DNA from: Nitrospinae bacterium RIFCSPLOWO2_12_FULL_45_22
GTDB lineage: Bacteria > 2-12-FULL-45-22
DNA: 5,762 nucleotides
Reading direction: 5' to 3'
Assembly (NCBI GenBank): GCA_001803565.1
Contig: MHDQ01000156.1
Location: 1 to 5,762, forward strand
Position numbers and translations under genes: made by a program. Numbering within the stretch: the first letter of the stretch is position 1; each line of letters starts with the position of its first letter. This document shows positions 61-5,727 of this stretch, piece after piece. A model generated the notes under the pieces. That model was given only the letters and a program-made list of their open reading frames with translations, searched no databases and was not told where the DNA came from.

Positions 61-106
61 ATAAACCACAGGATATTGCGCTATTATGCTCCTTATAGAA
101 TGTGAT

Positions 107-118
107 AAGGGAAGGGAG
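107..118 (+). promoter_or_regulatory. Ribosome binding site that decides the glyS start
   Basis: The purine run AAGGGAAGGGAG ends 10 nt before ATG 129. The alternative in-frame GTG at 102 lies upstream of and within this run and has no Shine-Dalgarno of its own. The ATG at 129 is therefore the better start. Confidence 0.6.
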
Positions 119-128
119 AAGCTATAAT

Positions 129-1433
129 ATGCCGGTAGAGATGGACAAGATTGTTTCGCTCTGTAAGCGCAGAGGGTTTATCTTCCAGAGCAGTGAGATT
201 TATGGTGGCTTAGGCAGTACCTGGGACTACGGTCCCTTAGGGGTAGAATTAAAACGAAATGTCAAAGAAGTATGGTGGCGGGATGTGGTTTATAATCGGG
301 ATGACATGGAGGGATTGGATGCCGCTATCCTGATGCACCCCGAGGTATGGGTGGCCTCCGGGCATGTAGAAGGCTTTACTGATCCTTTAGTTGATTGCAA
401 GTTATGCAAGAAACGGTTTAAGGCCGATGCTATCAGTACTAATGAGAATAAGTGTCCCGAGTGTGGGGGCGAGTTGACCGAGGCCAGGCAATTCAATCTG
501 ATGTTCAAGACCTTTATGGGGCCCGTGGAAGAAGAGGCCGCCACAGTCTATCTACGGCCCGAGACCGCCCAGGGTATCTTTACTAATTTTTCTAATATCC
601 TTACCACCATGCGCCGCAAGCTCCCCTTCGGCATAGCCCAGATTGGTAAGGCCTTCCGGAACGAGATAACCCCCGGTAATTTTACCTTCAGGACTAGGGA
701 ATTCGAGCAGATGGAGATCGAATATTTTGTCGAGGCCGGTACAGACCAGCAATGGTACGAATATTGGGTTCAGGAACGTTTTGCCTGGTACCTCAAATAT
801 GGTATTAATAAAGATAACCTGCAGGTAAGGGAACATGCGCCCCAGGAGCTGGCCCATTATGCTAAATGCTGCTCTGATATAGAATATCTATTTCCCATGG
901 GCTGGTCAGAGCTGGAAGGGATAGCTAACCGAGCCGATTACGACTTGCGACAACATTCTATCCATAGCAATAAAGACCTGAGTTTTTTTGATGAAGATAA
1001 GAAACAGAGGTATATCCCTTATGTGATTGAGCCTTCAGCCGGTGCAGACCGGGCTACCCTGGCCTTCTTGATAGATGCTTACCGAGAAGAGACAGTCCGG
1101 GGGGAGAGGCGGGTAGTATTGGGTTTTCATAAATCCCTGGCACCCATAAAAGTAGCGGTCCTGCCCTTGCTCAGAAACCGGCCAGAGCTGGTACAATTGG
1201 CCCGGACTATAGCCGAAGGGTTACGCAAAAGATTCTTTACTAAGTATGACGATACCGGCTCTATTGGCCGGCTCTATCGCCGTCAGGACGAGATCGGTAC
1301 CCTTTATTGTATTACCGTAGATGTCCAATCCCTGACCGATAAGGCTGTTACCGTACGGGATAGAGATACTATGCTCCAGGATAGAATCCCCCTCGAAGCA
1401 CTGGAGCGCTACGTTATGGATAAATTCTCCTGA
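129..1433 (+). CDS. glyS: Glycyl-tRNA synthetase, single-chain class II type
   Basis: Cytoplasmic enzyme that charges tRNA-Gly with glycine using ATP. The chosen product is 434 residues; a GTG at 102 would add nine residues but overlaps the ribosome binding site. It is the homodimeric type (often labelled glyS or glyQS), not the separate alpha/beta form. Visible features are an N-terminal GGLGSTWDYGPLG block (26-38) and two CxxC pairs, C90/C93 and C109/C112, expected to bind zinc in the insertion. The RPETAQGIF block lies at 143-151. Class II motif 2 runs FRNEITPGNFTFRTREFEQM (176-195), and motif 3 (GADRATLAFLIDAY) lies at 305-318. The anticodon-binding domain runs from about 337 to 430 and contains KYDDTGSIGRLYRRQDEIGT and the VTVRDRDT block. 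Length is slightly below the usual 450-500 but all core motifs are intact. It is complete and reads as ordinary chromosomal housekeeping sequence. Identification is secure. Confidence 0.97.
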   Translation: MPVEMDKIVSLCKRRGFIFQSSEIYGGLGSTWDYGPLGVELKRNVKEVWWRDVVYNRDDMEGLDAAILMHPEVWVASGHVEGFTDPLVDCKLCKKRFKADAISTNENKCPECGGELTEARQFNLMFKTFMGPVEEEAATVYLRPETAQGIFTNFSNILTTMRRKLPFGIAQIGKAFRNEITPGNFTFRTREFEQMEIEYFVEAGTDQQWYEYWVQERFAWYLKYGINKDNLQVREHAPQELAHYAKCCSDIEYLFPMGWSELEGIANRADYDLRQHSIHSNKDLSFFDEDKKQRYIPYVIEPSAGADRATLAFLIDAYREETVRGERRVVLGFHKSLAPIKVAVLPLLRNRPELVQLARTIAEGLRKRFFTKYDDTGSIGRLYRRQDEIGTLYCITVDVQSLTDKAVTVRDRDTMLQDRIPLEALERYVMDKFS

Positions 1434-1622: not shown

Positions 1623-1661
1623 TCTATTGACTTTTCTTTATATGGTCGAAGAAGTCTGCAC

Positions 1662-1689
1662 TTGACAATTTAGTCGCAGAAGATAGAAT
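1662..1689 (+). promoter_or_regulatory. Sigma70-like promoter for the DUF4160/DUF2442 cassette
   Basis: A perfect -35 box TTGACA (1662-1667) is followed after 16 nt by TAGAAT (1684-1689), one mismatch from TATAAT. Initiation would fall near 1696, about 25 nt before the DUF4160 start. It is the only strong promoter-like sequence I see ahead of the cassette genes, so it may also drive hicBA by read-through. I see no operator palindrome overlapping it. Confidence 0.55.
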
Positions 1690-1720
1690 TATCAGATGCA
1701 AGGCGGAGAGGGCCGTACCT

Positions 1721-1993
1721 ATGCCTACAATTTCGATGTTTTACGGCATCCTTATCCGGATGTTTTTCTATGATACGGATAGGCATAACGTGCCGCACAT
1801 ACATGCAGAACATCAAGGGCAAGTTGCTGTGTACTCAATTCACGATGGTTCTGTGTTGGCTGGCGAGCTTCCACCGAAAAAGCACAAATTGGTTGTCGCA
1901 TGGATTGAAATACACCAGGAGGATCTGCTCGCCGATTGGGAGCTGGCGGTTGTTGGCAAAAAACCTTTTCCTATTCGAGGACTTGATCAATGA
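1721..1993 (+). CDS. DUF4160 family protein (putative toxin-antitoxin-like module)
   Basis: A 90-residue soluble protein with the features of DUF4160. It opens MPTISMFYGILIRMFF, has the conserved PHIHAEHQG block (25-33), and then a G-x-LP-x-K segment (48-56). A C-terminal helix follows with W61, H65, L69 and W73 (AWIEIHQEDLLADWELA). The start is supported by GGAGAGG at 1705-1711, 9 nt before the ATG. Its stop overlaps the next start as ATGA, which implies translational coupling. DUF4160 genes are frequently paired with DUF2442 genes in bacteria and in mobile contexts. The pair is often suspected to be an addiction-type module, but I know of no firmly established biochemical function. Family assignment is confident; the role is inference from gene pairing and cassette location. 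A signal peptide or membrane segment is not seen. Confidence 0.85.
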   Translation: MPTISMFYGILIRMFFYDTDRHNVPHIHAEHQGQVAVYSIHDGSVLAGELPPKKHKLVVAWIEIHQEDLLADWELAVVGKKPFPIRGLDQ

Positions 1994-2247
1994 ACATTGA
2001 AGAAATTCTTCCGAGAGAGGATCACCTGCTGTACGTCAAGGCCGATGATGGGCAAGCCGGTCTATTTGACGTAACGCCCTATCTCGAATCAGAAGCTTTT
2101 GCACCCCTGAAAGACCGAAGTGAGTTCGAGCGTATCCACAATGGAAGGTATTTTATTGAATGGGAGTGTGGGGCAGATCTTTCAGCAGATACTATTCAAG
2201 CGCGGTGGACGCCTTTAACAAAGGAAGGCGCCCAACAAGGCGCTTAA
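1990..2247 (+). CDS. DUF2442 family protein, partner of DUF4160
   Basis: An 85-residue protein of the DUF2442 type. The N-terminal beta-strands lead into GLFDVTPYLES (24-34), then FAPLKDRSEFERI (37-49), YFIEWECGADLSADTI (54-69) and a short tail. The FDV-x-PYL and W-x-x-GADL-x-x-DT signatures are the family's hallmarks. It overlaps the DUF4160 gene by four bases (ATGA, 1990-1993) and so is probably coupled to it. No strong Shine-Dalgarno stands before its ATG. About the last six codons and the TAA stop (2245-2247) lie inside the downstream attC-like site. The tail (about 80-85) is therefore recombination-site sequence, as is common for cassette genes, and probably not part of the fold. Function is unknown; a regulatory or antitoxin-like role beside DUF4160 is plausible but unproven. 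Confidence 0.82.
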   Translation: MNIEEILPREDHLLYVKADDGQAGLFDVTPYLESEAFAPLKDRSEFERIHNGRYFIEWECGADLSADTIQARWTPLTKEGAQQGA

Positions 2248-2307
2248 CTCGGACTGCCTCAGTCGCTGCGCTCCTTCGGCAGCCGGTTAGCGCAATCGTT
2301 AGGTGCC
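2227..2307 (+). other. attC-like integron recombination site 1
   Basis: The left R box GCCCAAC (2230-2236) fits RYYYAAC and the right R box GTTAGGT (2298-2304) fits GTTRRRY. Between them the arms can pair: GCGCTTAACTCGGACTGCC on the left faces GGCAGCCGGTTAGCGC on the right, with a few unpaired bases as typical attC sites have. The terminal loop holds CGCTGCGCTCC (2264-2274). Integrase cleavage would be expected after G2298. The site starts within the end of the DUF2442 gene and stops 24 bp before hicB, exactly where a cassette junction should be. Confidence 0.8.
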
Positions 2308-2330
2308 CTTCAAAAATGTGAGGTGATTTT

Positions 2331-2534
2331 ATGAAGCCCAAGGTAATCGTTCATGAAGCGGAAGAAGGAGGCTACTGGGCCGAAGTCCCGTCTATTCCAG
2401 GCTGCGCGACTCAGGGAGAGACTTTCGACGAACTCCTCGGCAACATCTACGAGGCTGTCGAAGGTTGCTTGTTCGTAGACATAAAAGACATTGAGGTAAC
2501 GGAGAAGGATAAAGTTCTGGAGATCGCGGTGTGA
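2331..2534 (+). CDS. hicB: HicB-family antitoxin, short form
   Basis: A 67-residue protein with the HicB-like fold signature: beta-strand KVIVHEAEEGGYWAEVPSIP (4-23), then GCATQGETFDELLGNIYEAV (24-43), followed by an acidic tail. HicB neutralises the HicA mRNA interferase by binding it. This short form has only the partially degraded RNase-H-like domain and lacks the C-terminal ribbon-helix-helix or helix-turn-helix domain of longer HicB proteins, so autoregulation by DNA binding is not expected from this protein alone. AGGTGA (2321-2326) lies 4 nt before the ATG. Its TGA stop overlaps the hicA GTG start as GTGA, which indicates translational coupling. The order hicB then hicA is one of the two known arrangements. 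The gene itself is intact although its toxin partner is frameshifted. Confidence 0.9.
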   Translation: MKPKVIVHEAEEGGYWAEVPSIPGCATQGETFDELLGNIYEAVEGCLFVDIKDIEVTEKDKVLEIAV

Positions 2535-2739
2535 AAGCCATTTCAGGGAAGGACTTCGCGAAGCTGCTTGAGAGAAGAGGCTGGGAATTGCGTAGAACGA
2601 AGGGACGTCATCACATTTACGCAAAAGCGGGAAACCCGGCTCGGATTTCCGTGCCCATACATATGGAAATAGCCCACTCAAAATAGGCTTGTTGAGGCAC
2701 CTCATGAAGGTTGCAGGAATTGACGAAAGCGAGTTGTGA
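2531..2739 (+). pseudogene. hicA: HicA-family mRNA interferase toxin, frameshifted
   Basis: The GTG start at 2531 overlaps the hicB stop. The frame reads KAISGKDFAKLLERRGWELR, then TKGRHHIYAKAG and ARISVPIH, which is a clear HicA double-stranded-RNA-binding-like fold with the catalytic His in the G-x-HH segment (H27/H28). After His44 the frame runs into MEIAHSK and TAG at 2684-2686, giving 51 residues. From G2665 the +2 frame resumes as GNSPLKIGLLRHLMKVAGID and ends ESEL, TGA 2737-2739. This is the conserved HicA C-terminus. Omitting A2663-T2664 joins both parts into 68 residues, the normal length. The change is thus a 2-bp AT insertion in CATATGG. HicA proteins degrade mRNA and halt growth. 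The truncated product lacks the last strand and helix and is probably inactive. A sequencing or assembly error is possible. Position 26 is Arg where Ser is common. Confidence 0.85.
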
Positions 2740-2747
2740 CATAGAGC

Positions 2748-2820
2748 ACATAACAACGCAATCGAGTCGGACTGGCCTTCCGCTGCGCTCCATTGCAACC
2801 GCTTAGCCGAAACGTTAGAC
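2748..2820 (+). other. attC-like integron recombination site 2
   Basis: The right R box GTTAGAC (2814-2820) fits GTTRRRY. The left R box ACATAAC (2748-2754) fits RYYYAAC with one mismatch. The interior shares TCGGACTG (2767-2774) and CGCTGCGCTCC (2781-2791) with the first site in the same order. The ends (TAAC and GTTA) and the inner GGACTGGC/GCAACC segments can pair imperfectly. It begins 8 bp after the reconstructed hicA stop, the expected position for a cassette end. The match is weaker than site 1 but its similarity and spacing support it. Confidence 0.7.
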
Positions 2821-2850
2821 GGCAAGACCCATCGGGCGGAAGAAAGTAAT

Positions 2851-2859
2851 AAAGGAGGT
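2851..2859 (+). promoter_or_regulatory. Strong ribosome binding site of the third, broken cassette gene
   Basis: AAAGGAGGT lies 6 nt before ATG 2866 and is a near-perfect Shine-Dalgarno, the best in the cassette region. It begins 36 bp after the cassette boundary. It indicates that a translated gene once began at 2866 although the frame now closes after 17 codons. Confidence 0.6.
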
Positions 2860-2865
2860 ATTCAA

Positions 2866-3091
2866 ATGATACAATCTTTAACCGGTTTCTTTTTTAAGCT
2901 TGCGCGAGATGTTCTATAAGGATCTGGTAAAGGGAGCAATTGAGAAAAAGTTCAAGACAATCGTTGAGCAAGAAGTAAGGGAAACTCTTGTTGAACACCT
3001 TACTAAGGCACAAAAATCAGTTTCCTACCTCATTCTTCAGTCATGTCGACAACGTCGACTTATTACTTTGAGAGCAATCTGTACAGATTAA
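2866..3091 (+). pseudogene. Probable decayed cassette gene, unrecognised
   Basis: The ATG at 2866, behind a strong ribosome binding site, opens a frame MIQSLTGFFFKLARDVL that stops at TAA 2917-2919. In the next frame, from about 2900, a convincing charged helical stretch runs MFYKDLVKGAIEKKFKTI, then VEQEVRETLVEHLTKAQKS, and ends at TAA 3089-3091. Dropping one T from the six-T run near 2890-2895 would join the two. Downstream, the third frame (about 3072-3215, ending TGA 3213-3215) contains VQINVQIQIPLTDLVSFE and NTNLFLNADASLITPRYL, which also looks like former coding text. I do not recognise the family. I read the stretch as one gene of roughly 110 residues broken by at least two frame changes and a stop. 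Alternatives are two short independent ORFs, a 17-residue leader peptide, or noise in the downstream part. It follows the second attC directly, so it is a candidate third cassette that lost its own attC. Confidence 0.35.
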
Positions 3092-3310
3092 CGTTCAAAT
3101 ACAGATTCCCCTTACCGACCTGGTGTCTTTTGAGAACACCAATCTTTTCCTTAATGCCGATGCAAGTCTAATTACGCCACGCTATCTCTGTTGTAAAAGT
3201 GGATATTTTCTCTGATATTCAAGATGCCACTGCGCTTACCTTGATATCGCTGGATTTTATCCATGGTAAACTTTCTCAATTCATTCTATGAGAAATGTAG
3301 TGGAAACATA
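3092..3310. other. Intergenic region between convergent gene sets
   Basis: This holds only the possible third-frame remnant noted for the decayed cassette gene (to 3215) and small imperfect inverted repeats, such as TTTCTCA at 3272-3278 facing TGAGAAA at 3289-3295. I see no third attC, no RNA gene and no intact ORF. Rightward and leftward transcription would meet here. Confidence 0.5.
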
Positions 3311-3889
3311 TTAACCTGGATTTATTGCCTGGATGACATAAAGGTATTGATAAACCTCTAGCTGGCTAATATCTTTAAACCCAGCTTCAGAGAGTATCCT
3401 GATGGCCTCCTGGCAGGGTATCCTATGTTCTAATGGGGGCCCCATAGGTGATTCTTTTGCCTCCCAGTCTATATTAATAATTTTCCCCTGGGGCTTAAGC
3501 ACCCTCCTTATTTCCGAAAGCAGGGCTTCCTTTTGATCTGCTTCATGGAAGGCCATGGCGATGATAACCATATCCAGACACGAGTCGGGCAGCGGTATAG
3601 AATTCTCCTGGGATAAGATCGGCTCTATATTGGTTATATGCCTCTCTTTCATCCTTTGTTCCAGGATAGATAACATTTCCGGAGAAATATCTACTGCATA
3701 TACTTTTCCGCCCTGGCCTATTCTATGGGCCAGAGGAAAGGTATAATATCCCGTCCCACACCCTATATCGGCTGCGATAGTGCCCCCTGGCATTTTCAAT
3801 AGAGCCAAAAGTTTTTCTGGGTCCTGTATCTCCCGTCGTTCGGGAGAATCTAGCTTAGCAACTTTCTCGATATCGAATTTATGTCCCAT
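3311..3889 (-). CDS. Class I SAM-dependent methyltransferase
   Basis: A 192-residue soluble methyltransferase of the Methyltransf_11/25 type. The N-terminus FDIEKVAKLDSPERRE (5-20) resembles a recurring family of small bacterial and archaeal methyltransferases. Motif I ADIGCGTGYYT (40-50) binds S-adenosylmethionine. The acidic ribose-binding residue is D67 in VYAVDIS. Motif II/III is DMVIIAMAFHE (106-116), and LKPQGKIINIDW (131-142) is the strand typical after the catalytic region. The substrate cannot be told from sequence; the family resembles UbiE/ArsM-like small-molecule methyltransferases, but no arsenite-binding Cys set is present. AGGAG (3899-3903) lies 9 nt before the ATG. It is co-oriented with and downstream of the CoA-disulfide reductase gene, separated by about 155 bp containing a repeat, so co-transcription is possible but not compelling. 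The gene appears complete. Confidence 0.9.
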   Translation of the reverse strand: MGHKFDIEKVAKLDSPERREIQDPEKLLALLKMPGGTIAADIGCGTGYYTFPLAHRIGQGGKVYAVDISPEMLSILEQRMKERHITNIEPILSQENSIPLPDSCLDMVIIAMAFHEADQKEALLSEIRRVLKPQGKIINIDWEAKESPMGPPLEHRIPCQEAIRILSEAGFKDISQLEVYQYLYVIQAINPG

Positions 3890-3956
3890 TTTCTTCTTCT
3901 CCTGTAACGATTCTGTTTGATCCTATTTAACCGTTCACCCCCTTATCCTGCCACAT

Positions 3957-4029
3957 TGTCATTCTGAGACCTTCGCTCCATGTCATTCTGAGTGAAGCGA
4001 AGAATCTCGTTGTTCCGCTCAGGGTGACA
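3957..4029. repeat. TGTCATTCTGAG-type intergenic inverted repeat element
   Basis: TGTCATTCTGAG occurs at 3957-3968 and again at 3981-3992. CTCAGGGTGACA at 4018-4029 is its inverted counterpart, matching at 10 of 12 positions. Inside, CTTCGCT (3971-3977) is the exact inverse of AGCGAAG (3996-4002). The element can fold into a hairpin of about 49-73 nt. Repeats with the core TGTCATTCTGAGCGAAGCGAAGAATCT are known to me as widespread dispersed intergenic elements in several bacterial phyla. The partial duplication here suggests a second, truncated or nested copy. Function is unknown; a terminator-like or mRNA-stabilising role between the two leftward genes is possible. Confidence 0.75.
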
Positions 4030-4044
4030 AATCCGGTGAAAGGA

Positions 4045-5727
4045 CTAGCTGTTTTCTGAGGGCATATTGTGTTTCCAACTGGTAATGCCACCAATGAGGT
4101 TTTTTACCCGAGTAAAGCCATGGGCCTGCAAGATACGGCAGGCCAGGTAGGAACGGAGGCCAGTCCCGCAATGTGCCACTAATTCCTCTTTTTTATGACC
4201 TGCCAGCTCATCCAGCCGAGAGCGCAACTCATCAATAGGTATCAGGGTAGAGCCGGAAATAGAAACAACAGCATGCTCTCTGGGAGTACGTACATCAATG
4301 ATCCGTACCTTTTTTCCTGCCTCCATATCCCCCATCAACTCTTTGCTGGTTAAGGCTGCTACCTCACCCTGGAGTATGTTCTGGGCCACAAACCCCGCTG
4401 TTATAACCGGGTCGCGGGCCGAGCCAAATTGTGGTGCATAGGCCAGGTCCAGGTTTCCCAGGTCCGATATGGTGAGCCCGGCATAGAGGGCCGTAGACAA
4501 GATATCAATCCTTTTATCCACCCCGCCACGCCCCACTACCTGGACACCCAGGAGCCGGCCTGAGCCTTTTTCTGCAATCAGCTTGATAGTCAGAGGCTTA
4601 GCACCCGGATAGTAGCCGGCATGGTCCTCGCCATGGGTATAAGAGCAGTAATAATCCAGGCCTTCCTGCTGGGCTTCCCGTTCATTCAAGCCAGTCCGTG
4701 CCGCTACCAGGTCACAGACCTTGACAATGGCAGTCCCCAGTACTCCCTTCATAACCTTGTTGCCCCCAGCGGCATTAGCGCCAGCTACCCGTCCTTGCTT
4801 ATTAGCCGGCCCGGCCAGGGCTATCCAGACCTTTTTCCCGGTAAGCAGGTGGGTGCTTTCAGCACAATCCCCTGCGGCAAAAATATCTGGGTCGCTGGTC
4901 TCCATCCGTTCATTCACCTCTATGGCACCCGTCGTACCGATCTTTAAACCGGCATCTCTGGCCAGCCGGATATCAGGCTTGATACCGATAGATAGAATAG
5001 CTATTTCAGCCGGGAGCTTATGGCCGGACTCCAGGACAATCTCTTGCACCCGATCACTCTTATCCACCAAAAATTCCTTGACCCCATCTCTCAGGATCAC
5101 TTCTACCCTTTTCTCTCCCAGATGGGCCAGGATAGGCTGGGACATCTCTCTATCCATGGGAGCTAGCAGTTGGTCGGCTTTCTCTATTACCGTAACCTTT
5201 AAGTCCCGGGCCAGCATGGCCTCGGCCATCTCTAAACCGATATAGCCACCACCTACTATGGCTGCCTGGGTTATGGAATTGTTGGCCAGGTACTGAAAGA
5301 TATTATCTGTATCGGGTATAGAACGTAATGGGAAGCAGTTTCTGGCCTGTATTCCCGGCAGAGGAGGGACTATAGGTAAAGCGCCGGGGGCCAGGATCAG
5401 CTTATCGTAGGGCTCTTCAAACTCCTTATCTGTGATCAGGTCTTTCACCAGCACCCGCTTTTTATCCCGTAAAACCTTCAAGACTTCATGGTTAGTCTTG
5501 ACCTCGATATTGTGTCGTGCTTTAAAGCTCTCGGGTGTATTTAAGAGGAGGCTTTCCCGCTTAGCAATCTCACCGGAGATATAATAAGGCAGGCCACAAT
5601 TAGCAAAGGATATATAGGGCCCTTTTTCAAAGATAATTATCTGGCAAAACTCGTCTTGCCGCCTGGCCTTAGCGGCCGCACTAGCACCGCCTGCTACCCC
5701 ACCAATTACTACAATCTTCCTCACCAT
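4045..5727 (-). CDS. FAD-dependent CoA-disulfide/persulfide reductase with fused rhodanese domain
   Basis: A 560-residue cytoplasmic flavoprotein of the CoADR-RHD class, which reduces CoA disulfides or CoA persulfides/polysulfides with NAD(P)H and handles sulfane sulfur. The N-terminal FAD-binding motif GGVAGGASAA lies at 9-18. The single redox Cys44 in SFANCGLPYY (40-49) is the CoADR signature. The NAD(P)-binding loop GGGYIGLEMAE lies at 159-169 and the second FAD motif AAGDCAE at 284-290. The dimerisation domain includes THGEDHAGYYPGA (364-376). From about 456 a rhodanese domain follows: IIDVRTPREH (476-485) and the active-site loop HCGTGLRS (519-526) with catalytic Cys520. The usual rhodanese GHIPGA segment is changed to VSISGST (488-494). 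AGGAGGAG (5736-5743) stands 8 nt before the ATG. Homologues include Bacillus CoADR-RHD and the Shewanella Npsr persulfide reductase. The exact substrate (CoA disulfide, persulfide or polysulfide) is inferred from the family. The gene is complete. Confidence 0.94.
   Translation of the reverse strand: MVRKIVVIGGVAGGASAAAKARRQDEFCQIIIFEKGPYISFANCGLPYYISGEIAKRESLLLNTPESFKARHNIEVKTNHEVLKVLRDKKRVLVKDLITDKEFEEPYDKLILAPGALPIVPPLPGIQARNCFPLRSIPDTDNIFQYLANNSITQAAIVGGGYIGLEMAEAMLARDLKVTVIEKADQLLAPMDREMSQPILAHLGEKRVEVILRDGVKEFLVDKSDRVQEIVLESGHKLPAEIAILSIGIKPDIRLARDAGLKIGTTGAIEVNERMETSDPDIFAAGDCAESTHLLTGKKVWIALAGPANKQGRVAGANAAGGNKVMKGVLGTAIVKVCDLVAARTGLNEREAQQEGLDYYCSYTHGEDHAGYYPGAKPLTIKLIAEKGSGRLLGVQVVGRGGVDKRIDILSTALYAGLTISDLGNLDLAYAPQFGSARDPVITAGFVAQNILQGEVAALTSKELMGDMEAGKKVRIIDVRTPREHAVVSISGSTLIPIDELRSRLDELAGHKKEELVAHCGTGLRSYLACRILQAHGFTRVKNLIGGITSWKHNMPSENS

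Follow-up and report, generated by a model that had tools for sequence, protein, structure and literature searches.

A small, decaying group of toxin-antitoxin cassettes behind glyS, most likely placed there by a resident integron integrase, in Nitrospinae bacterium RIFCSPLOWO2_12_FULL_45_22

Introduction

Clusters of attC sites lacking an integrase (CALINs) are common, and more than one of them is present in 22% of the genomes that possess IntI (PMC9024848). The IntegronFinder definition asks for at least two attC sites within 4 kb and no integrase nearby (PMC9024848). Dispersed attC sites are known from an archaeal metagenome-assembled genome (MAG), with 107 of them on more than 18 contigs (PMC9668308), and the CALINs of Xanthomonas occupy seven places away from the intI/ilvD integron locus (PMC12444791). 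Secondary insertion of cassettes by IntI at attG has been described (Loot et al. 2024, cited by both PMC12901181 and PMC12444791). Because of these precedents, we regard the locus reported here as a further case of an already known system.

The stretch analysed, referred to as the window, is the complete contig C156 (5762 bases) of a genome assembly of 3.67 Mb in 321 contigs, which is 85% complete. Like CALINs (PMC9024848), the window has attC sites that share one orientation and are spaced as expected for cassettes, with small accessory genes in between and no nearby intI; it differs in that only one of its two attC sites is structurally sound and in that the host has intact IntI elsewhere. 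The genome resembles those carrying Xanthomonas CALINs (PMC12444791) in that, with IntI being active or decayed, cassette groups lie next to ordinary genes and chromosomally distant from intI. However, the seven Xanthomonas loci are spread across a genus, whereas 35 groups occur here in one MAG, many of them single sites and some of them resulting from contig breaks. Insertion into attG (Loot et al. 2024, as far as it is reported in the citing papers) would likewise scatter cassettes over the chromosome by means of IntI; for the window such an insertion is a proposed one, and no empty site was found.

Results and Discussion

Host genes and cassette genes

The features of the window are listed in Table 1. 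An array adjoined by intI and attI, as in a complete integron, is not present; glyS stands on the left, and the contig carries no integrase, as the initial annotation had stated. Correlation of codon usage with the host is high for glyS (0.91) and for the CoA-disulfide reductase gene (0.88), and lower for the cassette genes (0.57, a value that is noisy for such short genes), which marks the cassette genes as foreign-looking and both flanks as host-like. Wrong binning of the contig was rejected because of this host-like codon usage on both sides and because glyS is 82% identical to that of G001, the one further genome of the phylum that was compared, which belongs to the same order. A search of a phage collection gave no match.

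Table 1 Features of the window.
Feature	Position	Strand	Evidence
glyS, glycine--tRNA ligase, left host neighbour	102..1433	+	NCBIfam NF003211, 647 bits; 82% identical to G001 glyS
Left-edge element with promoter-like TTGACA (1662-1667) N16 TAGAAT (1684-1689)	1653..1708	+	similarity to C17
DUF4160 protein, DhiT-like toxin gene, cassette 1	1721..1993	+	PF13711, E 1e-23; NF048015 toxin_DhiT, 89 bits
DUF2442 protein, putative antitoxin, cassette 1	1990..2247	+	PF10387, E 1.3e-10
attC1	2230..2304	+	R'' GCCCAAC 2230-2236; R' GTTAGGT 2298-2304; covariance model, fold, plasmid homologue
Cassette 2 (hicB, hicA and attC2), 516 bp from crossover to crossover	2299..2814	+	distance between the GTT crossover points
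HicB-like antitoxin gene	2331..2534	+	PF15919, E 2.5e-6
hicA toxin gene, C-terminal part out of frame	2531..2686	+	PF07927, E 1.6e-11, profile positions 1-44 of 58 only
attC2, degenerate, probably hybrid	2748..2820	+	R box GTTAGAC 2814-2820; left arm 2757-2777, right arm 2789-2809, unmatched
Broken ORF remnant after attC2, possible third cassette	2865..3091	+	reading frame switches
Class I methyltransferase, right host neighbour, convergent	3311..3889	-	PF13649, E 1.4e-21
CoA-disulfide reductase-like flavoprotein with rhodanese domain, host gene	4045..5727	-	TIGR03385, 488 bits, cut-off 578.8 not reached

Two side observations concern the right flank. At 3928-4007 there is a short repeat (TGTCATTCTGAG...) which is 84% identical to C313:1727-1804 and of which pieces also occur in loci of other phyla. 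At 5534-5702, antisense to the CoA-disulfide reductase gene, Rfam gives a V_AS7 match of 50.8 bits (gathering score 90 not reached), which probably reflects conserved protein-coding sequence.

A two-gene unit of toxin-antitoxin (TA) type precedes each of the attC sites, in agreement with the initial annotation. In cassette 1, the DUF4160 gene remains, at 89 bits, below the cut-off of the DhiT equivalog model (100), and the DUF4160-DUF2442 pairing is present. The same type of pair recurs beside attC sites on contigs C151 and C23, and in G001 a DUF2442 gene precedes one attC. The unit of cassette 2 consists of HicB-like and HicA genes, of which hicA is frameshifted so that the remainder of the protein is encoded in another frame. 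For the remnant behind attC2, a profile search over 2900-3091 gave no family match.

The two attC sites

As a box-and-stem scan returned many chance palindromes, we built covariance models. The training set of model R1 comprised 12 sites, all of them from contigs C304, C206, C17 and C136, and that of model R2 comprised 62 sites from contigs other than that of the window. The arms of these 62 genome sites covary: 235 cells are changed on both sides compared to 92 in shuffles, which is also above slid controls, the counts leaning towards the structure to which the alignment had been fitted. With R2, no hits were obtained in three small genomes lacking a strong integrase match, and four in one larger genome. 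A further control, 833 kb of foreign glyS loci (80 named loci), gave two hits, both in a Chloroflexi locus (L043, JACAEN010000026.1; 8211-8272 and 8881-8938, with 26.9 and 23.8 bits). These also lie closely behind glyS and have the same orientation, the sole such case among the 80 loci.

The two R boxes, GTTAGGT and GTTAGAC, are located where the initial annotation had placed them, 516 bp apart, and application of the models to the window confirmed attC1 with 44.5 bits (R1; E 3.3e-9 in the window) and 49.1 bits (R2). This site has an R'' box of the form RYYYAAC, an R' box of the form GTTRRRY and inverted arms with extrahelical bases, and its bottom strand folds into a canonical hairpin with these bases extruded (z -2.3; 3 of 200 shuffles were as good). 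Crossover is expected between G2298 and T2299. An Rfam scan reported nothing attC-like and nothing relevant at threshold. A match which is independent of our covariance models is provided by plasmid pTBH13 of Thiolapillus brandeum (NZ_AP012275.1), where a site that is 84% identical to attC1 and exactly co-extensive with it is found between HicAB and HigBA cassettes. The plasmid array differs from the window in having five strong attC sites in a row (R2) and in its genes. In the feature table of pTBH13, this row and its TA cassettes (L205:597-671 and further sites) carry no attC annotation.

By its sequence, attC1 can be taken as a real attC. That the locus might instead be made up of TA operons of the ordinary kind, with hairpins behind them that only resemble attC, can practically be dismissed: TA genes are common outside integrons and attC2 alone would miss a strict model cut-off, but attC1 with its 44.5 bits belongs to a family of covarying sites and coincides in extent with a plasmid attC lying between TA cassettes, so that for this site the sequence evidence contradicts such a reading.

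Of the two attC-like sites that had been proposed, the second stands only in part. It scores 8.0 bits with R1; with R2 the score is 19.3 bits (E 9e-4). We consider it to be derived from an attC because, over 71 nt, it shares 80% identity with C287:10053-10123, an attC that folds. However, the arms of attC2 do not pair in the manner of an attC hairpin: its fold is no better than that of shuffles (z +1.1), and its arm score is 7.3 versus 12 for the C287 site, with 17% of shuffled arms being as good. Compared to the C287 site, the right arm has no differences at 21 positions while the left arm has 9 (Fisher p 0.0013, with arm limits chosen after alignment). The left arm of the C287 site would pair fully with the right arm of attC2, whereas the left arm of attC2 itself fails to do so. 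The left half resembles, with weak similarity (E 0.02), an attC from Pseudoalteromonas. Since the left arm has diverged and is unpaired, the right arm is unchanged and the two halves resemble different attC sites, attC2 is called mismatched and is probably a hybrid and dead site. It could have arisen by recombination or template switching in a shared loop, or by misassembly.

The latter would mean that attC2 and its join are a chimera, produced when two attC loops with common sequence were wrongly joined. The match of the arms to different attC types (Pseudoalteromonas-like on the left, C287-like at 21 of 21 positions on the right) is in line with this, and assembly is known to be made difficult by attC sites that resemble each other (PMC9024848). 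Nevertheless we consider a chimera improbable, because hicA is broken too, which points to real decay, and because the host-like codon usage of both flanks requires that any such join falls within one genome.

Integrases and attC sites in the genome

The initial annotation had described the cluster as integrase-less and had supposed that the lineage may be one without a described integron. The former holds for the 5.8-kb contig only, as the search of the genome for intI and further attC sites revealed two intact IntI and many remnants. The latter needs to be corrected: contig C304 carries a complete integron, with intI and six attC sites behind ORFs on the opposite strand, and G001 also has an IntI (506 bits) together with six attC sites. 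Among the papers listed in a literature search, none linked integrons with Omnitrophota, the phylum to which the nearest named glyS belongs but the host itself probably does not.

The two full-length IntI genes are found on C243 and C304 (467 and 439 bits; cut-off 265). Broken intI genes occur on C115, C136, C317, C287, C95 and C106, and intI pieces that run into contig ends on C7, C17, C206 and C248. The intI copies of C136 (L029:10143-10657) and C317 (L031:8631-9142) both lack the same internal portion (about residues 126-268) and are 85% identical over 569 bp; they appear to go back to a deleted integrase gene that was later duplicated. The intI-side sequences of C248, C17 and C206 (L034, L035 and L036) are 91-96% identical and are located near contig ends, which suggests that several integron copies broke the assembly.

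Genome-wide, 69 attC sites (E <= 0.01) form 35 groups on 34 contigs. Seven of the groups are near intI or a remnant, 9 are CALINs and 19 are single sites, the latter two counts being upper estimates because many groups are close to contig ends. Groups adjoin leuS, mfd, lpxK and a macB-like permease gene; together with the window, cassette groups thus occupy at least five chromosomal places.

Origin of the cassette group

We consider the region 1653-3100 to be a small, decaying cassette group without a neighbouring integrase, and with moderate confidence we attribute its position behind glyS to insertion at a secondary site by a resident IntI. This reading is based on the identity of attC1, the descent of attC2, the TA content, the intact IntI elsewhere and the foreign-looking cassettes between host-like flanks. 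It agrees with the initial annotation, which had offered a CALIN-type cluster or a secondary-site insertion, although two sites are reached only if the degenerate attC2 is counted. Cassettes would have been excised as circles from one of the integron arrays of the genome, and a resident IntI would have inserted these behind glyS by recombination of attC with a site other than attI. The group would then have decayed, leaving the attC of cassette 1 intact, the arms of attC2 mismatched, hicA frameshifted and a third remnant. Cassette 1 may still be recombinable in trans, and the TA pair may have contributed to the persistence of the group at this site.

The main rival is the loss of a local integrase: a complete integron would once have resided here and would have lost intI and attI through deletion or an IS event, with a short CALIN as the remainder. 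We consider this quite possible, if less than probable. The genome is rich in broken intI genes, several of which adjoin attC arrays (C115, C136, C95 and C17). In addition, the left edge (within 1627-1708) includes 56 bp that are 80% identical to C17:2215-2268, located 31 bp after leuS and also directly before a cassette group; parts of it are common to C191 (near 375-408, about 35 nt) and C107 (about 19 nt). With two good and two partial copies genome-wide, this element is perhaps promoter-bearing or IS-related. Its occurrence on C17, C191 and C107 also fits an IS- or deletion-mediated loss of the integrase and, like the weak and unfolded attC2, counts against insertion. On the other hand, no intI remnant was found in the 287 bp that separate glyS from cassette 1, and the 19 single-attC groups, a count inflated by contig ends, exceed what would be expected if integrase loss alone were at work.

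No clean G/TT left boundary was recognised before cassette 1. In G001, a different gene follows glyS, so that there is no synteny with the window at this position, and the host gene on the methyltransferase side was not found in that genome. As the comparison with G001 thus yielded no empty insertion site, it is from the evidence given above that we infer insertion rather than local integrase loss.

Significance

The locus is of specialist interest with respect to its phylum, to how widely cassettes are dispersed and to how many integrases are broken. If its arms do come from two sources, attC2 would provide a natural example of such an attC. A more far-reaching proposal, which we regard as tentative and rather doubtful, is that the integron system of this phylum routinely disperses cassettes over the whole chromosome, to places directly after such housekeeping genes as glyS, leuS and mfd; the chromosome, rather than one array, would then serve as the cassette store, while integrases are repeatedly born and lost. 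A deep and barely sampled phylum is added to the carriers of integrons, both of the genomes compared having IntI. With 35 attC groups, two intact integrases and about ten that are broken or cut off, this genome allows the dispersal of cassettes outside of arrays to be measured.
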